In this document: positions 9,149-22,703 of the stretch, in pieces
Position numbering within the stretch: position 1 is the first letter of the stretch
Layout of the letters: every line of letters begins with the position of its first letter
The notes under the pieces: generated by a model
Seen by the model: only the letters and a program-made list of their open reading frames with translations
Told to the model about the DNA's origin: nothing
The model's database searches: none
Assembly: GCF_024227435.1 (NCBI RefSeq)
Contig: NZ_CP100445.1
Coordinates: 3,159,369-3,223,368, forward strand
Length of the DNA: 64,000 nucleotides
Reading direction: 5' to 3'
From: Natrinema caseinilyticum
GTDB lineage: Archaea; Halobacteriota; Halobacteria; Halobacteriales; Natrialbaceae
Program-made: the position numbers and the translations under genes

Positions 9149-10123
9149 TCAGTACCGCCGTTCGTACACCGTCCCCGACTCGCCGACGACGAGCCGTGGC
9201 GACCGGGCCGTCCCGAGCGCGACCGCGTGGAGTTCGTTGTCGGGCCGAAGGCGAACGAGCGGTTCCCAGCCGTCGAAGCTCCGTTCGTAGATCGCACCCG
9301 CCGACGAGACCGCAAGTGCCGTGTCGCGGTTCCGTGCGAGCGCCGCGATCGGTTGCTCGCCGAGTGTCGCACGCGACCAGTTGACGCCGTTGTAGCCGTA
9401 GACGGCCCCGTTACCGCCCGCGACCGTGACGTGCCCGGTGTCGATCGCCGCGACCGCCGCGAAGTCGACGCCCGCGCCATCGATCCCGATTCGGGTCCAG
9501 GTGACTCCGCCGTCGCGGGACTCGAACACCCCGCCGTCCGTGTCGACGACGTAGGCGTACGCGAGCGACGTGAGGTCGACGTCGGTCACGCTCGAGCCGC
9601 TGCCGGGTTTGCCGACGTCGCCCCACTCGACGGTCGCGCCGTGGCGGCGCCCCCGGAGGAGTTCGCCGGAGCTATTGATGGCCGTAACCCGTTCGTCGCC
9701 GGCCAGGCCGGCGGCCGCGATCGCCGTCCAGGAGGTCGTCTTCGCCAGCGGCGCCGAGAAGTCCGCGACGTGGTCGGCGACGACGTCGTACAAGCCGAGC
9801 GCGCCGCTGTCGCCGGCCATCCAGAGCGCCTGCCCGTTGCTCGTGACCGCCGCGGTTCGAAGGCCGTCGCTCGTGTCCGAAAGACCGTTCTCGAGGGCGA
9901 CGGTCCAGTCGCCGCCGTCGCGGGCGAGGACGACACCGTCCTCGCCGACGGCGAAGGCGCCCTCCGCCGTCGAAACGACGTCGTACAGCGTTGCGTCGGT
10001 GGGGACGTCGACCGCGATCCACTCGCTATCGGCCCCGCCGCAACCGGCGAGCGTGACCGTGGCGACCGTAGCGCCGACCGATGCGAGGAGGCGGCGGCGG
10101 CTCGGAACGCGATCGGTCGTCAT
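9149..10123 (-). CDS. Tat-exported lipoprotein with beta-propeller (BNR/YCF48-like) repeats
   Basis: A 324-residue surface lipoprotein. Arg9-Arg11 in VPSRRRLLASVG and the lipobox LAGC (Cys28) give a twin-arginine lipoprotein signal. The rest consists of repeated blades with motifs such as WMAGDSGALGLYDV, GGVFESRDGGVTW and GESGTVYERRY, as in BNR/photosystem-assembly-type propellers. Its ATG overlaps the stop codon of the membrane-protein gene upstream by 4 bases, so the two are probably made together. A clear relative without the signal lies at 21396-22703. Frame upstream of 10123 is shadow of the neighbour. Function unknown. Confidence 0.8.
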   Translation of the reverse strand: MTTDRVPSRRRLLASVGATVATVTLAGCGGADSEWIAVDVPTDATLYDVVSTAEGAFAVGEDGVVLARDGGDWTVALENGLSDTSDGLRTAAVTSNGQALWMAGDSGALGLYDVVADHVADFSAPLAKTTSWTAIAAAGLAGDERVTAINSSGELLRGRRHGATVEWGDVGKPGSGSSVTDVDLTSLAYAYVVDTDGGVFESRDGGVTWTRIGIDGAGVDFAAVAAIDTGHVTVAGGNGAVYGYNGVNWSRATLGEQPIAALARNRDTALAVSSAGAIYERSFDGWEPLVRLRPDNELHAVALGTARSPRLVVGESGTVYERRY

Positions 10124-11658
10124 CGGCCCTCGTTCGTCCGGTCGACGGCCTCTGTCGCTCGAGACGATTCTTCGTTCGGCCGGGCGTCCGGCTCGGTCGA
10201 CCGTGCGTCGGGATCGGCGGACCGTGGGTCGGGAGCCGACCCTCGAGAGGGAGTTTCGACGGTCGCCGGTCCGATCTCGGTGGCCGTCTCGTGTGACTCG
10301 TGGAACTCGCCCGGCGGGGTGAACGCGCCCGGTGCGGATGTCCGCATGAGGATCGCGGAGATGCGAACGACGTAAGCGAACAGCACCGCGAGCGGGCTGA
10401 ACGCCACCGCGAGCGCGACACTCACGAGAACGAGCAACCACCCCTCGAAGGCGACGGGCGGGTAGCCGCTCGCGTAGATCATGATGACGAGCGACGAGAG
10501 CAAGATCGCGGCGGTGCCGCTGTAGGTGATGAGACGCGAGAGTCGCGCGAGTTCCCGCTGGAGGTAGATCGTCGTGAAGTACTGCCGAGTCGCGTCCGCG
10601 GTGACGAACAGTTCCCGAAGCTCCGAGAGCAGGTCCCTGACGCGGTCCGACAGATCTTCGTCGAAGCGTCGGCGGAGCCGTCGTGCCTCGTTCGCGGCAC
10701 CGGCGTAGTCGTGGTCGATCGTCGGCAGAACGACGGCGAACACCGAGTCCGTCTCGCCGGTGAGTTGCGAGGAGAGCCCGCTGGTGTGCTCTCGCGTCCG
10801 CGCTGCGAACCGACAGATCGATTCGAGGGCGGAGATCGGCGTGTCGACGGCCCGCCCGTCACCGACACGGCTGCGCTCGCTGCCGTTCGCGGCGCGATCC
10901 GCCTCTCCGCATTCGGTCGCGAGTTCGTCCGCTCGGCTGCCGAGCGTGCCAGCCAACCGGGCGAGGAAGGGCGCGGGATCGGTCGGGCTGACGCCGTCGC
11001 CCTCGGTCTGGGCCTCGACGCGACTCCGGAACTCCTGGACGCCGTCGATGCGGTCGGTGAGCCGATCGGGTGTGCCGAACAGCCGCGAGATGATCAACTG
11101 GTTGACCGCGACGACGATCGGGATGAACGAGAACAATCCCGCGATCATCGTACTGAACATCGTCGTGACGAACCGGCTCTCCCGGACGCCGATGACGTCG
11201 CTGACGCCGAGGACGAGCGCGAGGACGAAGATGCCGGCGACGAACCCGCCGACGATCGCCCGCCGGTCGCCCTCGAGCAGGAGCCACCGCCGCCCGCGGC
11301 GACGGGACGGCGTATCGGTGAGATACCGCGCCGCGATCCGGCCGCCGGTCCAGAGGATGCGGACGACCGCCGAGAGCGCGGCGACGGTCAGGCGGAGCAC
11401 GTAGTGAACGAGCGAGATGGCGATCGGCGTCTCGTCCCCGGGAGCAGATCCGGCGTCGTCCCGTCGTTCGTCGGCGGTTTCGGTTCCGTCGTCGACGCCG
11501 TGGCTCGAGGGACTCGCGTCGTGATTCGTTTCAGAACTCGATTCGTCCGATCGGGTCGCAGTTCCCTCGCGCGTGGAACCCGAGTCCGGTGGCTCGTTGG
11601 ACGGCGGCGACGAGTCGGAGGTCCGTTCGGCAGCGGAGGGCGATGAATCGTCAGTCAT
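10120..11658 (-). CDS. Uncharacterised four-helix membrane protein with acidic N-terminus
   Basis: A 512-residue protein that I cannot assign to a named family. The first 80 residues are a Ser/Thr/Asp/Glu-rich disordered tail. Then come hydrophobic stretches near residues 85-110, 140-160 (IVGGFVAGIFVLALVLGVSD), 170-195, and a pair near 375-445. Between the second and third pairs lies a hydrophilic region of about 180 residues. A second disordered Asp/Arg/Glu tail ends the protein. The 4-base overlap with the propeller lipoprotein suggests a membrane/exterior complex made from one message. Confidence 0.75.
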   Translation of the reverse strand: MTDDSSPSAAERTSDSSPPSNEPPDSGSTREGTATRSDESSSETNHDASPSSHGVDDGTETADERRDDAGSAPGDETPIAISLVHYVLRLTVAALSAVVRILWTGGRIAARYLTDTPSRRRGRRWLLLEGDRRAIVGGFVAGIFVLALVLGVSDVIGVRESRFVTTMFSTMIAGLFSFIPIVVAVNQLIISRLFGTPDRLTDRIDGVQEFRSRVEAQTEGDGVSPTDPAPFLARLAGTLGSRADELATECGEADRAANGSERSRVGDGRAVDTPISALESICRFAARTREHTSGLSSQLTGETDSVFAVVLPTIDHDYAGAANEARRLRRRFDEDLSDRVRDLLSELRELFVTADATRQYFTTIYLQRELARLSRLITYSGTAAILLSSLVIMIYASGYPPVAFEGWLLVLVSVALAVAFSPLAVLFAYVVRISAILMRTSAPGAFTPPGEFHESHETATEIGPATVETPSRGSAPDPRSADPDARSTEPDARPNEESSRATEAVDRTNEGR

Positions 11659-11685: not shown

Positions 11686-12699
11686 TCAGAGGCCATTGGA
11701 GACGGCCTCGAGGAGACGGATCGAGAGCAACAGGAGCGCGGTCAGGACGACGACCCGCCGGATGATGGCGCCCCGCGTGGTCCTGATCCGCGAGCGATCC
11801 GACGGATGAAACCCGACGGTCCAGAGCGTGGCGATCGCCCCGACGTTGATCGCGATGACGTTGACCGCGACGACGACGAGCGAACCGAGGACCGCCGCGG
11901 GTTCGCCCCAGGCGACGCCGACGCCGACGACGCCGATCGGCGGCATGATCGCCGCCGCGATCATCACGCCGATGAGGTCCGTGATGCCCGTCGTCGCCAT
12001 TCCCAGTCCGCCGGCGATGCCCGAACAGACCGCGACGGTGACGAGCAACGACGGCGGCAAGCCGTGGCTGCCGAGTCCGAGACTCGCCTCGAGATCGACC
12101 GCGCCCGTGATGACCGTCGACGTTCGTGCGAACACCGCGAACGCGAGGGCGCTCGTCGTGGCGACGCCGATTCCGAGGACCTGGTGTTTGACGCCGCGGA
12201 CGAACAGTCGTCGCTCGTCGAGGACGGTCGCGGCACTCGAGGCCATCGCCGGCCCGAGCAACGGCGCGATTACCATCGCACCGACCAGGACCGCAAGCGA
12301 GTTCAGGAGGACGCCGGTCGTGGCGACGACGCCGCTGATCGCCGTCATCGCTGCGAAGATGACGAGCGAGGGCAACTGTGACTGGGCTTTCGACCGCAAT
12401 TCGCTTCGAGAGATCCGCTCGAACGAGAGCCACTCGCGACGGCCGTCGGGCACCGAACTGTCCCACCCCGTCCCAACGATCGCCATCGGTTCCTCGACGA
12501 CGATCGCCACGTCGCCCTCGACCGACTCCAGATCGTCCTCGAGCGGTTCCACTGCGTGTGCGGGCGTGGGTACCGTGATCGTTCGGCTCTCGCCGGTGGT
12601 GTGGTCGGTGAGGCTGTACTCGAGATCGTGGCGGTCGATGATCGCCGTGATCTCGTCCGTACTCGACTGCGATGAAGTGATCACCGTCAGCAGACGCAT
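11686..12699 (-). CDS. DUF389/TIGR00341-family membrane protein
   Basis: A 337-residue protein with an N-terminal soluble ferredoxin-like domain of about 110 residues (MRLLTVITSSQSSTDEI) followed by about six membrane segments. The segments contain GVLLNSLAVLVGAMVIAPLL and MATTGITDLIGVMIAAAIMP, which are hallmarks of the DUF389 family. No biochemical role is established for that family. The frame is open to a GTG at 12753 that overlaps the stop of the zinc-ribbon gene upstream, but relatives begin with MRL-like residues, so the ATG at 12699 is preferred. It probably shares a transcript with its upstream neighbour. Confidence 0.85.
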   Translation of the reverse strand: MRLLTVITSSQSSTDEITAIIDRHDLEYSLTDHTTGESRTITVPTPAHAVEPLEDDLESVEGDVAIVVEEPMAIVGTGWDSSVPDGRREWLSFERISRSELRSKAQSQLPSLVIFAAMTAISGVVATTGVLLNSLAVLVGAMVIAPLLGPAMASSAATVLDERRLFVRGVKHQVLGIGVATTSALAFAVFARTSTVITGAVDLEASLGLGSHGLPPSLLVTVAVCSGIAGGLGMATTGITDLIGVMIAAAIMPPIGVVGVGVAWGEPAAVLGSLVVVAVNVIAINVGAIATLWTVGFHPSDRSRIRTTRGAIIRRVVVLTALLLLSIRLLEAVSNGL

Positions 12700-12749: not shown

Positions 12750-13316
12750 TCACAGTAGTTCGAGCGCATCGGTGTCTGGGGTTGGATCGTCGGGGAAGGT
12801 TTGGGCGAACAGCGAGCGGACGGTTTCGCGGATCGTCTCGAGACGGTCGTCTCCGGTATCGTCACACGATCCACCGCAGCGGCCGACCGGTCCGTCGGGT
12901 CCTACGGCGTAGGTCAACCGACCGCTACAGCCCGGACACCGCGGTTCGGCGTGGGACGTCATCCAGTCCACGTCGAACCCGTCCCGAGCCAACCGTTCGC
13001 CGAGCGCGAACCAGACGATGAGGTCGCGTTCCTGGCGCCCGCTCGCCCGCCGCTTGAGCCGGCCGATTGCGAGCGCAGCGCGACGGGAGAGTTCGTCGTT
13101 CGGATCGGTGTGTCGACGGTGACACCGCCGAAAGTAGGTCGTCAGGGCGCGCCTCGAGGACCGTCGCTTTCCCATGGTAAGCGGTGCATCGAGGCTCGCG
13201 TTCGGCGAGAGGTCGTCGGACTGTGGAACGCGCTCCGGACGACCCTGTTCGTCGTAGTGAGCCTCTCGTGAAAGAGAGGCTCCGCTGGTCGGACAGAATG
13301 CGTATTCACCAATCAT
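12750..13316 (-). CDS. Uncharacterised haloarchaeal zinc-ribbon protein
   Basis: A 188-residue protein (141 if translation begins at MGKRRSSRR, position 13175). I do not recognise the family. The middle is an Arg-rich helical segment (RRALTTYFRRCHRRHTD and SRRAALAIGRLKRRASGRQE) and the C-terminal third has a probable zinc ribbon with CPGC and, 18 residues later, CGGSC. A TATA-like TTTATAC at 13379-13385 on this strand lies about 65 bases before the upstream ATG, which supports the longer start. The stop codon overlaps a possible GTG start of the DUF389 gene, consistent with an operon. Confidence 0.6.
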   Translation of the reverse strand: MIGEYAFCPTSGASLSREAHYDEQGRPERVPQSDDLSPNASLDAPLTMGKRRSSRRALTTYFRRCHRRHTDPNDELSRRAALAIGRLKRRASGRQERDLIVWFALGERLARDGFDVDWMTSHAEPRCPGCSGRLTYAVGPDGPVGRCGGSCDDTGDDRLETIRETVRSLFAQTFPDDPTPDTDALELL

Positions 13317-13523
13317 TGTTGGAGGTCGATCGAACCGTCAGTGCGGTCCGACCGGGCACCTCGGCTAGCAGTGCCAGTGGTATAAACTGACACAATACTG
13401 AGAGTGTCTACAATAAAGATACGGACCCGTAAGGCGCTCTAGACGTGCGTTTCAGATATTTAGTGCGACAATGTTATGAATATAGACACCTTATGAGTGG
13501 GGAGTACCAACGGCGGATGCGTC

Positions 13524-13967
13524 ATGTCACGTACTGATCTCGCAGCCATCGATCCGACCGATCGCGCGCCGTGGCACTGGTACGTCCTCATCGGCTATCC
13601 CGTCTTGAGCCTGCTCGGAATCGTTTCGCTCGCTCGACTCACCGGCGGCGGTTCGGTTCTGGCGACTGGCTTCGGCAGCATCGCCCTCCTGATCGTCGTC
13701 ACTGCAGTGGGCGCCGTCACGTTGCCCGCGATCTGGCGCGACGTGGACGTCGTCGCAGACGAAATCGACTCGTGGAATCCCGATCGGGAGATATACGTCG
13801 GCGCGGCAGTCGCTGCTCCGTTGATTCTCGGCGTCCTCTCCGGGCTGGCCGCCGGATTCGGCATCGCGATCGCGCTGACGGTCGTCGCGTTCCTGCTCTC
13901 GTCACTGACGGTCTGTCTCGCTTACCTCTACAATCGACACCGCGAGATAGGTCTCCTGACCCGCTGA
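13524..13967 (+). CDS. Small four-segment membrane protein
   Basis: A 147-residue protein with hydrophobic stretches at roughly residues 20-40, 46-68, 90-112 and 113-135, a Trp-rich N-terminus (RAPWHWYVLIGYPVL) and a short basic tail. No conserved motif is recognised. An in-frame ATG at 13497 would add nine residues. It stands alone, divergent from the zinc-ribbon gene, with AT-rich DNA before it (13380-13500) that also holds a small inverted repeat GACAC/GTGTC at 13389-13408. Confidence 0.65.
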   Translation: MSRTDLAAIDPTDRAPWHWYVLIGYPVLSLLGIVSLARLTGGGSVLATGFGSIALLIVVTAVGAVTLPAIWRDVDVVADEIDSWNPDREIYVGAAVAAPLILGVLSGLAAGFGIAIALTVVAFLLSSLTVCLAYLYNRHREIGLLTR

Positions 13968-14294
13968 GAGTTTTCGTCGCGGCCGCAACGACCGTTCGCC
14001 CGCTCCCGTCGACTGCGCATCAGAGACGATCGGCCGAAACTCGGAACCGATCGGACCGTCCGCCGTTTCGGTACGAATCCTCTAGGTTACGTCCCATTTT
14101 ATAGGCCGCAATCTATTGGTTATTGGTGTTGGTAGGCCCGGACGACGCGCACCCGGCGCGGATGACCTCCTGGCCCGACAGCGCAGCCGCCACTCTCTCC
14201 AGCACCCTGCTCGTGACGTTCGACGCGGGTCCGGCGAACTCGCGACGTGCGATGCAGGTCCGAAGACGCCGTCGACTGTCACTTCGATCACGCC
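13968..14294. other. Intergenic region before the ArsP-like permease
   Basis: No gene is supported here. A TATA-like CCATTTTATAGG at about 14093-14104 could drive the permease gene, leaving a leader of roughly 125-170 bases. Short frames crossing the region have no codon bias or start context to recommend them. Confidence 0.4.
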
Positions 14295-15797
14295 ATGCTC
14301 TCAGCGATACACCTCATCACCGACACGTCAGGCCCCGTGCTGGCAGCGGGGGGACCGCTTTCCACCCTGCTCCCGCAGGCGATCGATCACGGGCCCGTCC
14401 TTCCGGCACAACTCTCGACCGTTCGGCCGACCGGTTCGGGAATCGCCCCCAACGGCGGCGGGTTCGGGTACGCGGCCCGGCTCGTCGGCGTGCTCGGTGC
14501 GCTCTTGCTGGGAGTCCTCTCCGGAGCGATCATCGCGTTTCGGATGGCCTGGGACACCTGGTGGGCGCTCGTCCTCGGCTTTACCATAACCGGGGCCGTC
14601 CAGGAGTTCGTCTCCGAAGACCGCCTCAGCGACTACATCGGCGACGACGGCTGGCGAGAGATCGGCTACGGGACCCTCTTCGGCGCCTCGTCGTCGAGTT
14701 GTTCGTTCTCGGCGGTCGCGACGACACGGACGCTGTTCACCAAAGGTGCCTCGGCCGCGGCCAGCCTGGGCGCGTTCCAGTTCGCGAGCACGGATCTCGT
14801 CCTCGAGCTCGCCCTCGTCGTCACGGTCCTGCTCGGCTGGCAGTTCGCCGCCGCCGAAATCGTCGGCGGGCTGGTCGCCGTCGCCGTGATCGCGGTCGTC
14901 TATCGACGGTTCGTCCCCAACTCCTGGGTCGAACGCGCGCGTGAACACGCGAAGGCGCTCGAGGAGACCGAGTGTGCGACCTGTGGAGTGGCCGCCGACC
15001 CGACCGCCGACGAGACGGTGTCGAAGGTGGTCGACGGCGAGCGGCGGTACTTCTGCTGTGGCGGCTGTCGCGGTGCCTACGATCCCAACGACCGGGACGC
15101 GGTCACCGCCGGCCCGGAGCTTCTGTCGGGCGATCGGTGGCGATCGGCGACCGCCAACGCGATCCGCGAGTGGGACATGCTGTGGCGGGATATCGCCCTC
15201 GGCTTCGTCATCGCCGGACTGCTGGCCGCGCTCGTTCCCACCGCGTGGTGGACGGCTCTCTTCGGGGTCGGCGCAGACGGGAGTCTGACCCGAACCGTCT
15301 CGAACGTCGTCATCGGGGCCGTCGTCGGGGTGGTGACCTTCCTCTGTTCGGTCGGCAACGTCCCCTTCGCGGTCGTCCTCTGGCAGAACGGCGTCTCCTT
15401 CGGCGGCGTCCTCGCGTTCATCTTCGCGGACCTGCTGATCCTACCGCTGGTCCGGACCTATCGGCGCTACTACGGTACCCGCATGGCCGCCGTGATCTTC
15501 GTCGCGTTCTTCCTCGCGGCCGTCGTAGCGGGCCTCGTCGTGGAACTGCTCTTCGGCGGCCTCGGCCTCGTCCCGCCCCACACCACGGGTGGTGGCTCGG
15601 TCTCCGGAGCCTACACGGCCCTCCTCAACGTCGTCGCCGCCCCGATCCTCGCGATCCAGATCTACGTCGCCCTCGAACCGGAACAGCGCGTCCGAATCGG
15701 TACCCGACTCGCGCCCCACGTCGCCGGCGTGATCTACCACGCCCACTCGCTCGTCGAGCGGATCGCATACGCGCTCGAGGATCGCGGGCTCGAGTGA
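14295..15797 (+). CDS. ArsP/UPF0718-type permease with internal TRASH/YHS-like metal domain
   Basis: A 500-residue membrane protein made of two homologous permease halves joined by a soluble insert. Both halves carry the family's small-residue motif: SSSCSFSAVATTRTLFTKGA in the first and FLCSVGNVPFAVVLWQNGVS in the second. The permease family (COG0701) includes ArsP, an organoarsenical exporter. The insert near residues 230-260 has CATCG and, about 22 residues on, FCCGGCRGAY, a Cys pattern like TRASH or YHS domains that bind heavy metals. An upstream ATG at 14247 is possible, but MLSAIHLITD gives a more natural membrane start. Its role may be metal(loid) or copper handling for the oxidase downstream. 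Confidence 0.8.
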   Translation: MLSAIHLITDTSGPVLAAGGPLSTLLPQAIDHGPVLPAQLSTVRPTGSGIAPNGGGFGYAARLVGVLGALLLGVLSGAIIAFRMAWDTWWALVLGFTITGAVQEFVSEDRLSDYIGDDGWREIGYGTLFGASSSSCSFSAVATTRTLFTKGASAAASLGAFQFASTDLVLELALVVTVLLGWQFAAAEIVGGLVAVAVIAVVYRRFVPNSWVERAREHAKALEETECATCGVAADPTADETVSKVVDGERRYFCCGGCRGAYDPNDRDAVTAGPELLSGDRWRSATANAIREWDMLWRDIALGFVIAGLLAALVPTAWWTALFGVGADGSLTRTVSNVVIGAVVGVVTFLCSVGNVPFAVVLWQNGVSFGGVLAFIFADLLILPLVRTYRRYYGTRMAAVIFVAFFLAAVVAGLVVELLFGGLGLVPPHTTGGGSVSGAYTALLNVVAAPILAIQIYVALEPEQRVRIGTRLAPHVAGVIYHAHSLVERIAYALEDRGLE

Positions 15798-15972: not shown

Positions 15973-17403
15973 ATGACACAACCACCGACCGACAGCACCG
16001 AACGGAGCGATCCAGTCCGGCTCGTGTGCCTCGTCGCCCTCGTGGCGAGCCACGGCCTGCTTCGGCTCGCAGAACGCTATCTCCCCGAGTTCCTGTCCGC
16101 GCTCGGATACGGATCGATCGTCGTCGGATCGCTGGTGACGCTCGGCTTCGGCGTCGCCGTCGCCGCGTCCGAACGCTCGAGGAACGTGATCGACCGCACC
16201 TCGCCGACCGACCTCGAGACGGCGGCGACCGCCGTGCTGTCGACGGCCCTCGCCGCGATCGGCCTGTTCGCCTGGGCGGGGTCGCCCACGCTCGATACGC
16301 TGCTTGGAACCCCGCTGTCGGCGCTCGGGTGGCTCGCAACGGGCGTCGTCCTCCTCCAGGCCTGGCACGTCGCCGGCCCCGCACGCGGCCTGTGGCCGAT
16401 CGATACGCGCGCACCAGCGCTTCCCTCGAGGCACTCGAACGCGCCGGGAGCCGAGGGCGCCGACGACCGCGCTGTCCGACGGGCGATCACCGCGGACAGC
16501 CGGACGCGAACCGTCGTCGGTGCGTTCGGAGTGGCCGCCGCAGCGGTGTTCGCGACGGCCGCCGTCGCGAGCGCCGACGCCGTCGGTGCCGGATTCGCGC
16601 TGGTCGCCGCTGCCGGCGCCGCCACCGCGCTCGTCGGTGCGGTCGCGGTGGGAACCGCCCGCGATCGGGCGCCACCGATCGGCGATCGTCTCCAACGCGA
16701 CGGGCGAACGAACGACGGACGATCGACGGACGGGCGAACGGAAACCGGGCAAACGAACGCTGCGCAATTCGACGGAGAGTCGAGGCTCACGGACTTCAGG
16801 AACGCCGTCTCGAGGGTGCCGGATCGCCGGCGCTTTGCCGTCATCGGCGACGCGCTCGTCAGAGTAGCGATCGCGGGGATCGTGCCGTATCTGATCCTCC
16901 TGACCGTCGAGTATCGGTCGATCGGGCTCTCGGTCGGCGCCATTACGCTCGCACCGGCGGCCGTCTTCGGCCTGTTCGTCCTCGCGGAAGCCGGCGCCGC
17001 GGTACTCGGTTCGATGGCGACCCCCGCGCTCGTCGACCGGGTGGATCGCAGAGCGCTCCTGGCGGTCGGGTTGACGGCGCTCTCCTTGCTCCCGATGGCG
17101 CTCGTCGCCGCACCGGCCAGGGTCGGCGTCGTCGCGGCCCTGTTCGGTTTGCTCGGCTGTCGCACCGCGATCGAGCCCCTCCGTCCGACGATCGGATCGA
17201 ACACGCAGGCGAGTCCGGTTCCCGGTCCGCGACTCCCCCAGGAGATTCGAACCGCCGTCCGAATCGCCATCGTTCCCGCGCCGCTGATCGGCGGGATCCT
17301 GTACGCGATCGATCCGCTGGTCGCGTTCACCGGCGCGACGACGGTCGGGCTGCTCGGCGTGCGCGAACTGGGACGGGCGTTCGCCTTCGGACGGCACCGA
17401 TGA
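15973..17403 (+). CDS. MFS-like multispanning transporter
   Basis: A 476-residue protein with about twelve hydrophobic stretches in two groups of six. They are separated by a hydrophilic linker (residues about 235-275) rich in Asn, Asp, Thr and Arg. The pattern fits a Major Facilitator carrier, though signature motifs are weak. The stop codon overlaps the start of the oxidase gene by 4 bases (ATGA), a strong sign of coupled production. In bacteria the MFS protein CcoA supplies copper to haem-copper oxidases; a similar role here is only inferred from position. Confidence 0.7.
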   Translation: MTQPPTDSTERSDPVRLVCLVALVASHGLLRLAERYLPEFLSALGYGSIVVGSLVTLGFGVAVAASERSRNVIDRTSPTDLETAATAVLSTALAAIGLFAWAGSPTLDTLLGTPLSALGWLATGVVLLQAWHVAGPARGLWPIDTRAPALPSRHSNAPGAEGADDRAVRRAITADSRTRTVVGAFGVAAAAVFATAAVASADAVGAGFALVAAAGAATALVGAVAVGTARDRAPPIGDRLQRDGRTNDGRSTDGRTETGQTNAAQFDGESRLTDFRNAVSRVPDRRRFAVIGDALVRVAIAGIVPYLILLTVEYRSIGLSVGAITLAPAAVFGLFVLAEAGAAVLGSMATPALVDRVDRRALLAVGLTALSLLPMALVAAPARVGVVAALFGLLGCRTAIEPLRPTIGSNTQASPVPGPRLPQEIRTAVRIAIVPAPLIGGILYAIDPLVAFTGATTVGLLGVRELGRAFAFGRHR

Positions 17404-18941
17404 CGCGGTCATCGACGCCGGGACGCGCACTCGAGAGCGCCCGAGGCTCGCTCGAGGGCCTCTCGCGCGTCGATCATCGACGGCTCGCCCGCTGGCACCT
17501 CGGCTTCGCGCTGGCGATGGGACTGTGGGGCGGTCTCGATGCGCTGTCGCTCCGAACGGCGCTTCTCACGCCGGCGCTAAACCGCTGGTCGGCGGAGACC
17601 TACAACGCCTTCTTCACGACCCACGGACTGACGATGCTGTTCCTGTTCGTCCTGCCGGCGATCTGGGGGTTCGGGTACGCCGCCGTCCCCCCGCTGATCG
17701 GCGCCGAGCGGACGGCGTTTCCGCGCCTCGGCGTCTGGGCGTTCTGGCTCCAGGTACCGGCGGCGCTCTCGATTCGGGCGGGCACGATCGGCGGCATCCT
17801 CGGGCTGGCCGGACTCGAGCCGGTCGCGAGCGGGTGGACGCTGTATCCGCCGCTGAGCGTACTGTCGCCGAATCCGGCCGTGGACGCCGTCCTCGTCGGG
17901 CTCGTCCTCGTCGCCGTCGGGACGACGGTGACGGCCGGAAATCTCGTCGTCACGATCCTGCGGCGGCGCCGGGTTCGGTGGCTCGACGTGGACACGTTCA
18001 CCTGGACCGTGCTGACGGCCGGCGCGATGACGGTCGTCGCGTTTCCGGTCCTGGCCGTCACCGTCGCGCTGTTGGTCGTCGATCGGTCGGCCGGCACCGC
18101 GTTCGTCGTCGGCGGCGGCGGACCGCTGGTCTGGCAGCACCTGTTCTGGTTCTTCGCCCACCCGCTGGTGTACATCCTCGTGTTGCCGCCGATGGGGATC
18201 GTCAGCCACGTCGTCCCGCGCTTCGCCGGACGGCGGCTGGTCGGCCATCGGACGTCGGTCTATTCGACCCTCGCGATCGGCGTCGTCTCCTTTACCGTCT
18301 GGGCCCACCACATGTTCGTGACGGGCATGAGTCCGGCCGTTCGGACGGTCTTCATGTTCACCACGCTGGCGGTCGCGATCCCGAGTTCGGCCAAGCTCTG
18401 TACCTGGCTCCTGACGCTGTGGGGCGGCGCGATCCGGTACACCGCACCGATGGTCGCAGCCGTCGCCGCCGTCGGCTTCTTCGTCGTCGGCGGCGTCACC
18501 GGCGTCTTCCTCGCCGTCGTCCCGATCAACGCCCGCTACACCGGGACCTACTACGTCGTCGCTCACTTCCACCTGCTGCTCGCCGGATTCGTCGGGCTCG
18601 CCCTCGTCGCCGGTTCCTACTACTGGTTCCCCGTGCTCACCGGCCGGCGACTCGAGTCGGGGCTCGCCCGACTGCACGGGTGGCTGACGATCGTCGGCGT
18701 CGCGGTGACCTTCGGCGCGCTGCTGATCGTCGGCCTCGCCGTCCTTCCGCGACGTGTCGCGACCTATCCGGCGGCGTACGCGCCGCTACACCAGCTCGCA
18801 ACCGTCGGTGCATACGTTATCGCGGCCGGCCAGGTGGTCTTTCTCGCGAACATCTGCCGCTCGATCTGGCTCGGTGACCCCGTCCCTGCAGATCCCTGGC
18901 GCCTCGAGAACGGTCCGTCTCACACACGCGAATGGCGGTAG
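17400..18941 (+). CDS. Haem-copper oxidase subunit I, divergent
   Basis: A 513-residue catalytic subunit of a terminal oxidase. All metal ligands are present: His75 and His391 for the low-spin haem, His254, His303 and His304 for CuB, and His389 for the high-spin haem. Tyr258, the cross-linked Tyr, is present in AHPLVYILVLPPMG. The Glu normally following HP in A1-type enzymes is Leu256, and the A2 Tyr-Ser pair is Phe-Ala, so the usual D-channel end is missing. HHMF and VAHFH motifs show it is an oxidase, not an NO reductase. No CuA-bearing subunit II lies beside it. The ATG overlaps the upstream gene's stop. Confidence 0.88.
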   Translation: MTRSSTPGRALESARGSLEGLSRVDHRRLARWHLGFALAMGLWGGLDALSLRTALLTPALNRWSAETYNAFFTTHGLTMLFLFVLPAIWGFGYAAVPPLIGAERTAFPRLGVWAFWLQVPAALSIRAGTIGGILGLAGLEPVASGWTLYPPLSVLSPNPAVDAVLVGLVLVAVGTTVTAGNLVVTILRRRRVRWLDVDTFTWTVLTAGAMTVVAFPVLAVTVALLVVDRSAGTAFVVGGGGPLVWQHLFWFFAHPLVYILVLPPMGIVSHVVPRFAGRRLVGHRTSVYSTLAIGVVSFTVWAHHMFVTGMSPAVRTVFMFTTLAVAIPSSAKLCTWLLTLWGGAIRYTAPMVAAVAAVGFFVVGGVTGVFLAVVPINARYTGTYYVVAHFHLLLAGFVGLALVAGSYYWFPVLTGRRLESGLARLHGWLTIVGVAVTFGALLIVGLAVLPRRVATYPAAYAPLHQLATVGAYVIAAGQVVFLANICRSIWLGDPVPADPWRLENGPSHTREWR

Positions 18942-19148: not shown

Positions 19149-19475
19149 ATGTCGACTACGACAAGTACCGACGTCGCGCTGATGCTCGTTCAACTGATCG
19201 CGATCACGATCCCCTCAACCGTCGTCCTGATCAAACAGTTACGGCGATCGGATAACCTCCAGTGGCAGTACCGGAAGCTGAGCTTCGGGCTCGTCGCGTC
19301 GTGTATCACGCTGTTGATCACGGCCGCGATCGTCGTCCTCTCGTACTTCATCGCGGGATTGCGACTACCCAACACGCTCAACGCCGGACTGTTACTCGTG
19401 ATCGTCGGTCTGGTGCCCCTGGGGGCGTTCATCGCCGTCCTCTACCGCGAACATCGGAAGGAATACGGCCCCTGA
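19149..19475 (+). CDS. Small three-helix membrane protein
   Basis: A 108-residue hydrophobic protein with segments near residues 8-30, 42-66 and 76-98, linked by a basic loop (KQLRRSDNLQWQYRK) and ending in YREHRKEYGP. No family is recognised. It follows the oxidase gene after 207 bases in the same direction, so it could be an accessory subunit, but nothing in the sequence proves this. Confidence 0.6.
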   Translation: MSTTTSTDVALMLVQLIAITIPSTVVLIKQLRRSDNLQWQYRKLSFGLVASCITLLITAAIVVLSYFIAGLRLPNTLNAGLLLVIVGLVPLGAFIAVLYREHRKEYGP

Positions 19476-19560: not shown

Positions 19561-19974
19561 ATGTCAAATCACACCCCCACGAATTCCGACTGTAGTGACG
19601 AACCGGTCACCGACGACGGTGAGATACTGGGCGCTGACGACAGCGACAAATCGAAACCGGCCGACGTCTCGGACCCCCGTCCCCTGACGAATCTGACCGG
19701 TTTCAAGCGCGATCAACTGTTCGTCATCCGAATGCTCGCGGACCGCAACCCACACGGCCTCGTTATCAAAGACAAACTCGATTGCTACTACGACGAGGAG
19801 ATCAACCAGGGGCGACTCTACCAGAACCTGGGCGAACTCGTCGACGAAGGATACGTCGAGAAGCATCCCCTCGACGGCCGGACCAACGCATACCGACCGA
19901 GCACGCGCGCGAACAGACGCCTTGAGGAACACTACGAGTGGGAGCGGCGCTGTCTCTTTTGCGAGGTCCCGTAA
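19561..19974 (+). CDS. PadR-type winged-helix transcriptional regulator
   Basis: A 137-residue protein whose C-terminal 95 residues form a PadR-like winged helix: LTGFKRDQLFVIRMLADRNP, HGLVIKDKLDCYYDEEIN, then GRLYQNLGELVDEGYVEKHP and DGRTNAYRPS. This set is typical of the haloarchaeal PadR/phiH-repressor-like group. The first 40 residues are acidic and disordered, and the C-terminus ends in CLFCEVP, with two cysteines that might sense redox or metal. It precedes the GDH-like gene by 141 bases in the same direction and may control that operon. Confidence 0.82.
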   Translation: MSNHTPTNSDCSDEPVTDDGEILGADDSDKSKPADVSDPRPLTNLTGFKRDQLFVIRMLADRNPHGLVIKDKLDCYYDEEINQGRLYQNLGELVDEGYVEKHPLDGRTNAYRPSTRANRRLEEHYEWERRCLFCEVP

Positions 19975-20115: not shown

Positions 20116-21399
20116 ATGCCTCCATCCAACGACTCGACGGTCGACGAAGCCAGTCGAACAGATCCGGATCTCGACGCCCCGTGGACGTACGCGACGGCCG
20201 CTGCGCGGCGTCTCGGGGTTCCCGACGATATCGAACAGCGACTCCTGTACCCCACGCACCGCCAGCGAATTACGGTGCCGTTCGAGCGCGACGACGGCTC
20301 CCGCGGCGTCTGCGAAGGCTACCGCGTCCGCCACGACGGTGTTCGCGGCCCCTACGTGGGACCGCACCGATACGACCTCGCGTTGACCGGCAACGACTGT
20401 TCCGGGCTCGCGGCCGCGACGACCGTCAGCGCCGCGATCGCCGACGTCCCGTTCGGCGGTGCAGCGGGCGGAATCGCCGTCGATCCGACGACGCTCTCGC
20501 GGGCCGAGCGGGTCGGTCTCACCCGGTCCTACGCGGCTCGCATCACCGGCCTCGGTGCCGACGAGGACGTCCTCGTCCCCGACGTCGGAACCGACGAACG
20601 CACGATGGCTCGAGTTGCCGATGCCCTCTCCGATCGCGGCGACGGCCCCCGGAACGCGGCCGTCGCGGGGAAACCGCCCGCGCTCGGCGGCCATCGGGAG
20701 ATCACGCGATCGGCCGGCTACAGCGTCGCCCACGTCACGCAAGACGTCCTCGAGACGGATCACGACCGGCCGTTGACCGACGCGACGGTCGCCGTCTACG
20801 GCACGGGACACATCGGCGCGACGGCCGCACGGCTGCTCGAGTTCCGGGGCGCCACCGTGATCGCGATGTGCAACGACGAGGCGGGCCTCACCGCGCCCGA
20901 GAGCGAGAACGGCCTCGACACCGACCTGGTCCCGAGCTACCTCGAGCGGCCGGGCGCGCTCTCGTCGTACGACGAGGGGACGCCGACCGGAACGCAGAAC
21001 GTCCTCGAACGAGACGTCGACGTGTTAGTTCTCGCGGACCCGGTGACTGCAGTAACCGCCGAGAACGCCGACGCGGTTCGGGCCGAACTCGTCGTCGAAG
21101 GTGCCACCGGGAGCGTGACCCCCGGCGGTCAGAGCGTTCTCGAGGACCGGGGCGTCACGGTCGTTCCCGACGTGCTGGCGACGGTCGGCAGGCCCATCGC
21201 GGCCCATCTCGAGTGGATCGGGAGCCTCGGGCGCGACCGGATGAGCGACGCGCGCGTGACGAACGAATTCGGCTACGCGCTCACCGACGCGGTCGAGGAC
21301 GTTCGTGACCGCCGCGAGAGCTGTTCGTTGAGTTGGCGGGAAGCGGCATACAGCGTCGGGCTCTCGCGCGTCGCAGCGGCCCACGAGGTGGTGCAATGA
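20116..21399 (+). CDS. Glu/Leu/Phe/Val dehydrogenase-family protein lacking catalytic lysines
   Basis: A 427-residue protein with the full glutamate-dehydrogenase layout: substrate domain, then a Rossmann domain with GTGHIG near residue 230. The family's three lysines are replaced. RGPYKGG is RGPYVGP (Val81), the TWKCA Lys is Ser105, and GGAKGG is GGAAGG (Ala117). Later motifs also differ: EGANG is EGATG and the ANAGGV loop is ATVGRPI. Active glutamate oxidation is therefore unlikely, and the protein may be a regulatory relative or bind another ligand. The ATG at 20116 is chosen because the upstream frame is Arg-rich. The next gene starts inside its stop codon. Confidence 0.85.
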   Translation: MPPSNDSTVDEASRTDPDLDAPWTYATAAARRLGVPDDIEQRLLYPTHRQRITVPFERDDGSRGVCEGYRVRHDGVRGPYVGPHRYDLALTGNDCSGLAAATTVSAAIADVPFGGAAGGIAVDPTTLSRAERVGLTRSYAARITGLGADEDVLVPDVGTDERTMARVADALSDRGDGPRNAAVAGKPPALGGHREITRSAGYSVAHVTQDVLETDHDRPLTDATVAVYGTGHIGATAARLLEFRGATVIAMCNDEAGLTAPESENGLDTDLVPSYLERPGALSSYDEGTPTGTQNVLERDVDVLVLADPVTAVTAENADAVRAELVVEGATGSVTPGGQSVLEDRGVTVVPDVLATVGRPIAAHLEWIGSLGRDRMSDARVTNEFGYALTDAVEDVRDRRESCSLSWREAAYSVGLSRVAAAHEVVQ

Positions 21400-22703
21400 T
21401 CGACCGCATCGGCGAATCGCTCCGCACCGCCGTCGGCTGGCTCCAGCGCGTCGCCCCGATTCGAGCGGGTCCGGGCGGTGACGAACGAGACCCGGAGGAC
21501 GACGACCGGCCGGACGCGCCGGACGACGAGCAGGAAGCTTCGGACGGCGACGGAGACGACGAAGACGGGCACGACAATGACGACGAAGACGAGCCCGACG
21601 GAGAGGACGCAATACGATCGGACGGCGGCAACCCCGACGCCGACGTGCTCGCCAGTGGGGCGGTCTCGGGCGATGCCAGCTCCTGGCAGCCGGCCGAGTC
21701 GCCGACGTCGCGGACCATCCACGGCGTCGTCCACGGACAGGACGGCCCCTACGCGTGCGGCGAAGGTGGGCTCTTGCTCCATCGCGGGCCCGACGGCTGG
21801 CGCGTCCTTTTGGAGCGGGGACCGGGCGTCGCGGAGAACACGCTTCGATCCATCGCCGCGACCGACGACGGCTGTCGCATCTGGTTCGCCGGCGACAGCG
21901 GCGCGCTCGCCTTTTACGACGTTGCCGACGGCAACCTCAGCGATTACTCCGCGCCGATGGAAAAGACGAGTACCTGGGAATCGATCGCCGTCACCGGTCG
22001 AACCGGCGAGGAACGCGTTCGCATCGCGAACGGCTCCGGCGAGGTCTTCGACTGTCTCGTCGAAGACAGCTGTCCGACGTGGGGCGAGGTCGTCGAACCC
22101 GGTGGCGGCTCGACGATCCCCGGCCTGACGGCCGGTCCGGACGGGTTCTACGCCGTCGACACGAGCGGCGGAGCGTACGTCGAGCCCCGACCCGAGGATC
22201 CACCCGAAAGCGGATCGACGGACCCCGACCTCCGGGACGGCGAACCGGCGGATACGGAGCCCACGGACACCGATCCCTCGGAGGAGTGGAAACGGATCGG
22301 CGTCAGGAACGCGCAGGTCAACTTCCAGGACCTCTGGGCCGGCGACCGATCGGTGTTCATCGCGGGCGCCGACGGGATCGCGTACCGCTACGACCCCCAC
22401 TGTGAGAACTGGACGCCGCTCGCGGTCGGCGAGGGGGCCCTGCAATCGATCCGGTCGACCAGATCGGGCACGATCGCGGTCGCGAACGGCGGTCGGATCT
22501 ACGAACGCGACGAGAGCGTTCGCTGGAACGAACTCGAGACCCCGACGGAACAGTCGCTGCTCGGACTCGCGCTCGCCCGCTCGAGCGCCGACGTCGACGA
22601 AGGGCTGGCGACCACACCGGTCGACGTCGCCGTCGGATCGGGCGGCGTCATCCTAGAGCGTGATCGGACGGACGGCTCGAGTCCGGATAGCGGTCGAACG
22701 TAA
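21396..22703 (+). CDS. Cytoplasmic beta-propeller protein, paralogue of the 9.1-kb lipoprotein
   Basis: A 435-residue protein with no signal peptide. Residues 25-75 are an Asp/Glu-rich disordered tract, followed by propeller blades. WFAGDSGALAFYDV followed by NLSDYSAPMEKTSTWESIAV aligns closely with WMAGDSGALGLYDV...ADFSAPLAKTTSWTAIAA in the lipoprotein at 9149-10123. A second acidic insert (Pro/Asp/Thr-rich) interrupts the middle. The start codon overlaps the GDH-like stop (ATGA), so the two proteins are probably made together and may bind. Function unknown. Confidence 0.8.
   Translation: MIDRIGESLRTAVGWLQRVAPIRAGPGGDERDPEDDDRPDAPDDEQEASDGDGDDEDGHDNDDEDEPDGEDAIRSDGGNPDADVLASGAVSGDASSWQPAESPTSRTIHGVVHGQDGPYACGEGGLLLHRGPDGWRVLLERGPGVAENTLRSIAATDDGCRIWFAGDSGALAFYDVADGNLSDYSAPMEKTSTWESIAVTGRTGEERVRIANGSGEVFDCLVEDSCPTWGEVVEPGGGSTIPGLTAGPDGFYAVDTSGGAYVEPRPEDPPESGSTDPDLRDGEPADTEPTDTDPSEEWKRIGVRNAQVNFQDLWAGDRSVFIAGADGIAYRYDPHCENWTPLAVGEGALQSIRSTRSGTIAVANGGRIYERDESVRWNELETPTEQSLLGLALARSSADVDEGLATTPVDVAVGSGGVILERDRTDGSSPDSGRT

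Follow-up and report, generated by a model that had tools for sequence, protein, structure and literature searches.

The window (the whole stretch of Natrinema caseinilyticum DNA that was analysed, 64,000 nucleotides) carries a gene for a relative of glutamate dehydrogenase (GDH) that lacks the residues needed for GDH chemistry and that we call pseudo-GDH. Judged from its sequence, pseudo-GDH is an inactive GDH, which is a known kind of protein, in an unusual context. We put the probability at about 60% that this catalytically dead GDH now serves the membrane machinery of the gene cluster in which it is found, as a scaffold or regulatory subunit with no catalytic role, and that a beta-propeller protein is its partner. 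The residues required for chemistry have been lost, yet the gene is under selection, sits in a conserved cluster, and has a constant link to the propeller gene, which points to a protein that is probably a structural or regulatory part.

Active-site residues of pseudo-GDH

The Pfam domains PF02812 (E 2e-29) and PF00208 (E 3e-34) span the whole 427-aa protein with scores above the curated cut-offs, and both the N-terminal dimerisation domain and the C-terminal dehydrogenase domain of the ELFV dehydrogenase fold family are present. Residues 28 to 422 align with solved GDHs (E 5e-57). The best NCBIfam match is NF041398, the haloarchaeal GdhB, at 337 bits, which does not reach the equivalog cut-off of 620 bits. 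An AlphaFold2 model built from five sequences had a pLDDT of 34. In Natrinema zhouii, the annotation of the related protein goes no further than Glu/Leu/Phe/Val dehydrogenase dimerization domain-containing protein.

In the established enzymology of GDH (C. symbiosum numbering), Lys89, Lys113, and Ser380 bind substrate, while Lys125 and Asp165 are catalytic. We read the corresponding sites of pseudo-GDH from an alignment with 22 haloarchaeal GDHs whose sites are intact. The gene and its sites are as follows, with counts that refer to the clade described in the next section.

20116..21399, + strand: pseudo-glutamate dehydrogenase (427 aa); Pfam ELFV_dehydrog_N and ELFV_dehydrog; 24-member clade
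20356..20358, + strand: Val81, at substrate-binding Lys89; V, L, M, I, or A in 24/24
20428..20430, + strand: Ser105, at substrate-binding Lys113; S, T, G, A, or R in 24/24
20464..20466, + strand: Ala117, at catalytic Lys125; Ala in 24/24 (GGAAGG)
20800..20817, + strand: GTGHIG dinucleotide motif; intact in the window copy and in 12/24 clade members
21202..21204, + strand: Ala363, at substrate-binding Ser380; Ala in 24/24

This alignment confirmed what the preliminary description of the gene had reported, namely, that Val81, Ser105, and Ala117 stand in place of the three key lysines and that the EGANG and ANAGGV loops are changed, to EGATG and ATVGRP in the window copy. At the position of Asp165 the window copy keeps an aspartate (D156), and N253 takes the place of the NAD-ribose Asp that ends the second NAD-domain strand. 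The losses of Ser380 and of the NAD-ribose Asp had both been missed, as had the oxidase/permease/PadR cluster that is the main context of the gene.

Conservation and erosion across the clade

In 125 genomes of the family that were scanned for orthologues, a clade of 24 pseudo-GDHs, including the window copy, stands apart (46 to 92% identity) from ordinary GDHs (≤44%). The named members belong to Natrinema and Haloterrigena (Natrialbaceae), and the most divergent member is that of locus L033; a further, divergent copy at locus L089, treated below, is left out of all site counts. An order-wide HMM search of 392 genomes gave two score groups, one at ≥670 bits and one at ≤420 bits, and no member of the high-score group was found outside the family in these 392 genomes.

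When the orthologues were inspected at positions 81, 105, and 117, as the preliminary description had proposed, all three proved to be non-lysine in every one of the 24. This is due neither to chance nor to sequencing error, and it agrees with the earlier reading of the protein as a pseudoenzyme. The position of Asp165 is D in 13 members, G in 7, E in 3, and N in 1. Of the 131 columns that are invariant in ordinary GDHs, the clade keeps 66, has a different fixed residue at 11, and varies at 54. The dimerisation-strand motif is among the features kept (D59, D60, G61, G68, R70, and H73, within ERDDG and GYRVRH). The C-terminal GLWP segment of haloarchaeal GDH is absent from all 24, so that the oligomer may differ from that of canonical GDH.

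Forty-six positions are fixed only in the pseudo-GDH clade and not in GDH, and since these include P83 and H84 beside an old lysine, they lend some weight to the explanation that pseudo-GDH has become a new enzyme, with other residues of the GDH fold doing the chemistry. However, H84 is not strictly conserved (it is Leu in L023 and L089), D156 varies, and Ala, Leu, Val, or Gly occupies many of the positions that have become fixed. A new enzyme is also hard to reconcile with the erosion of the dinucleotide motif and with the loss of the NAD-ribose Asp in 23 of 24 members, and we consider it decidedly unlikely.

The same two features bear on cofactor binding. The dinucleotide motif had been described as kept, and NAD(P) binding had been proposed. 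The motif is indeed intact in the window copy and in the Natrinema members, but it is not a feature of the clade: only 12 of the 24 have an intact GxGxxG, and in the others it has degenerated to forms such as GTAACG, GTSTVG, GATVVG, GCGPAA, and GCD.. at this place. The NAD-ribose Asp (position 253) is kept solely in L033, whose GxGxxG is broken. NAD(P) binding may therefore persist in the Natrinema members, to judge from these motifs, but it is unlikely to be the conserved function of the clade, and as a general feature the earlier proposal does not hold.

Selection and coupling to the propeller gene

The dN/dS of pseudo-GDH is 0.08 to 0.23 (Nei-Gojobori, ten pairs), and by the same method the ratios are 0.10 to 0.25 for the cluster oxidase and 0.27 to 0.60 for the MFS-like gene. 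The pseudo-GDH reading frame is full-length and intact in all 24 genomes. Based on these ratios, pseudo-GDH is under purifying selection, as had been supposed at the outset. The fact that 65 of the 131 GDH-invariant positions are lost or variable would also be consistent with a decaying gene that is heading for loss, but the intact frames, the dN/dS values, and the conserved overlap with the next gene make this extremely improbable. Gene decay was ruled out as a candidate on the basis of dN/dS and the intact frames.

The next gene, which is conserved in all loci, encodes a beta-propeller protein.

21396..21399, + strand: ATGA overlap of the pseudo-GDH stop and the propeller start; RTGA in 24/24 loci
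21396..22703, + strand: beta-propeller protein (435 aa) with an acidic N-terminal linker; PF23366, HVO_0234-like propeller, E 3e-7

The stop/start overlap is 4 nt, either ATGA or GTGA, in all 24 loci. This is strong evidence for coupled translation of pseudo-GDH with the propeller, and the coupling noted for the window copy thus holds for the whole clade. The fixed overlap suggests a complex of the two proteins, although an overlap of this kind is in itself a sign of coupled expression and not of binding. On the reading that we favor, pseudo-GDH would be produced together with the propeller and would probably be bound to it.

The oxidase/permease cluster

In the window and in the pseudo-GDH loci examined, the genes stand in a fixed order: ArsP_1-type permease, MFS-like protein, heme-copper oxidase subunit I, TM108, PadR, pseudo-GDH, and propeller. 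The features of the cluster in the window, including a divergent arm, are listed below.

9149..10144, - strand: second propeller (YCF48/PSII_BNR-like) with a lipoprotein-type N-terminus, divergent arm; PF14870; conserved
10120..11658, - strand: TM512 membrane protein, divergent arm; conserved; no Pfam match
11686..12699, - strand: TIGR00341/DUF389-type membrane protein, divergent arm; TIGR00341 annotation in N. zhouii; conserved
12750..13316, - strand: zinc-finger-like protein, divergent arm; conserved
13497..13967, + strand: TM156 small membrane protein, first gene of the + block; conserved in syntenic loci
14247..15797, + strand: ArsP_1/DUF318-type permease with a Cys-rich metal-binding (TRASH-like) insert; start codon uncertain; PF03773 E 7e-66, weak TRASH match
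15973..17403, + strand: MFS-like membrane protein; weak MFS_1 match below the family cut-off; position conserved
17400..18941, + strand: heme-copper oxidase subunit I, glutamate of HPEVY replaced (HPLVY); PF00115 E 2e-122
19149..19475, + strand: TM108, 108-aa membrane protein, cluster marker; conserved position
19561..19974, + strand: PadR-family transcriptional regulator, directly upstream of pseudo-GDH; PF03551 E 4e-8; conserved

The 24 of 125 genomes with pseudo-GDH are exactly the 24 that have the cluster-type oxidase (at least 649 bits). The cluster is widespread among haloarchaea and usually lacks a GDH. As a scaffold or regulatory subunit, pseudo-GDH could serve in the assembly or activity of the oxidase and in metal handling. 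It may also signal to the PadR regulator encoded next to it, which is the weaker idea because PadR is present in most clusters without a GDH as well.

Signalling to PadR is central to another explanation, in which pseudo-GDH is a sensor of NAD(P) or of a metabolite that acts through this regulator. There is a precedent in RocG of Bacillus subtilis, a trigger enzyme that is a GDH and acts on the transcription factor GltC (PMC6794564). Such a sensor would fit with the constant place of PadR just upstream of the gene in the pseudo-GDH loci and with the intact GxGxxG of the window copy and the Natrinema members. Nevertheless, we regard it as improbable. Of the 24 members, 12 have a broken GxGxxG and 23 have lost the NAD-ribose Asp, and the occurrence of PadR in most GDH-less clusters indicates that PadR does not need pseudo-GDH.

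Several further observations concern the composition of the cluster. The glutamate of the oxidase HPEVY motif is replaced (HPLVY) in the window and in most pseudo-GDH clusters, is E in L081 and L089 and Q in L082, and is kept in nearly all clusters checked outside the family (V in L113); its loss roughly parallels that of the GDH lysines. No subunit II gene was seen beside the cluster oxidase. In 18 of 25 cluster loci (e.g., L035, L036, and L089) the propeller gene is followed by one for a DUF2182 membrane protein, which is absent from the window (22703 onward) and from its closest relatives. Some clusters have a CPA2-type antiporter-like gene between the oxidase and PadR (L089 and L110), and one version of the cluster (L112, in genome G286) has the permease, MFS-like protein, PadR, and TM108 with no detectable oxidase gene. 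The annotation of the N. zhouii gene at the place of TM512 (10120 to 11658 in the window) as cbb3-type cytochrome c oxidase subunit I looks doubtful, because the TM512 protein of the window has no Pfam match.

In Natrinema zhouii the whole cluster (L100) is on a 465-kb plasmid (NZ_CP084883.1, positions 34489 to 65772) with a transposase nearby. Together with the patchy spread (24 of 125 genomes), this suggests that the cluster is mobile.

Origin of pseudo-GDH

With TM108 as the marker, we traced the cluster across 392 genomes of the order and found it in 40 of them, in six families. Among 20 such loci that were retrieved from outside the family, a GDH is present in 3 (L102, L111, and L114) and absent from the other 17. 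The GDH adjoins PadR in L102 and L111 and overlaps the propeller start in L114, and all three GDHs retain the three lysines, Asp165, GxGxxG, EGANG, and Ser380. The preliminary description had counted orthologues with the lysines as evidence against its reading. None occurs in the 24-member clade, but these cluster GDHs of other haloarchaeal families are of that kind; their presence in the same cluster indicates that the loss of the lysines is a derived state, and it does not refute present inactivity.

The copy at L089 (G001, Natrialbaceae) is divergent: its three lysine positions read L, Q, and M and that of Asp165 reads Gly, but GYGAVG, NAGG, and Ser380 are still there. In the tree, the cluster-resident GDHs, dead and intact, form one branch (support 100/99) apart from the free-standing GdhB. 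A single origin of lysine loss for L089 and the 24 has a support of only 60/81 in this tree, which contains several long branches. These sequences are most simply read as the history of a canonical-type GDH that was resident in the cluster and then lost its catalytic function in Natrialbaceae. According to this scheme, a canonical-type GDH would have joined a haloarchaeal heme-copper-oxidase/permease cluster; the loss of the three lysines would have come first, followed by the erosion of Ser380, of NAGG, and, in part, of the dinucleotide motif.

A single locus offers a natural series of states (no GDH, intact GDH, lysine-less GDH with the cofactor motif, and GDH with neither), so that one can test directly how a pseudoenzyme arises and in which order its sites are lost. 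It also links the GDH fold to an uncharacterised and widespread haloarchaeal oxidase/permease cluster. More tentatively, an active GDH may have been recruited to the oxidase cluster and coupled translationally to the propeller before it lost catalysis and, in part, the ability to bind its cofactor. A heme-copper oxidase system that lost its own conserved HPEVY glutamate in the same lineage would now depend on it as a non-catalytic subunit or assembly factor.

Comparison with known systems

We found no earlier report of a GDH pseudoenzyme in haloarchaea in the literature accessible to our search, outside of which most subscription papers lie. Pseudo-GDH resembles haloarchaeal GdhB (NF041398) in having the same domains and in aligning over its full length at 40 to 44% identity. 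It differs from GdhB in having lost the three lysines, Ser380, EGANG, NAGG, and the C-terminal GLWP.

By analogy, the nearest functional precedent is GdhA of Thermus thermophilus, a catalytically inactive, regulatory GDH subunit (PMC9570180). Like pseudo-GDH, Thermus GdhA (PDB 3AOE chain E) is a GDH paralogue in which the catalytic lysine is replaced, with the same GGAAGG. In contrast to pseudo-GDH, it has kept both substrate lysines (GPAKGG and TLKAAV) and the serine equivalent to Ser380. The two proteins do not share a descent apart from active GDHs but lie on separate branches of the tree. Based on the two retained lysines and this different position, the shared GGAAGG change looks convergent.

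The Thermus precedent suggests that pseudo-GDH might be a regulatory subunit of the cell's active GDH and form mixed hexamers with GdhB, since the inactive Thermus GdhA, which also has GGAAGG, regulates GdhB (PMC9570180). Suitable partners exist: the search for a canonical GDH elsewhere in the window's own genome, another proposal of the preliminary description, yielded two GDHs with all lysines intact. On the other hand, Thermus GdhA pairs with a catalytic GdhB, whereas no gdhB linkage was seen for pseudo-GDH, which in all 24 genomes is linked to the oxidase/permease cluster and not to a GDH gene. Furthermore, pseudo-GDH occurs in 24 of 125 genomes although GDH matches occur in all 125, the leucine site of other GDHs includes C-terminal residues (PMC9570180) and GLWP is lost in 24/24, and Thermus GdhA is placed elsewhere in the tree. 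A role in mixed hexamers is therefore unlikely, and a non-catalytic part of the oxidase/permease cluster, partnered with the propeller, remains the reading that we prefer.

RocG is a more distant parallel, in that it is an active enzyme with a LysR-type partner, GltC, while an interaction of pseudo-GDH with a regulator is only hypothetical. The GDHs of L102, L111, and L114 share with pseudo-GDH both the gene cluster and the branch of the tree, and they differ from it in that their catalytic site is fully intact.
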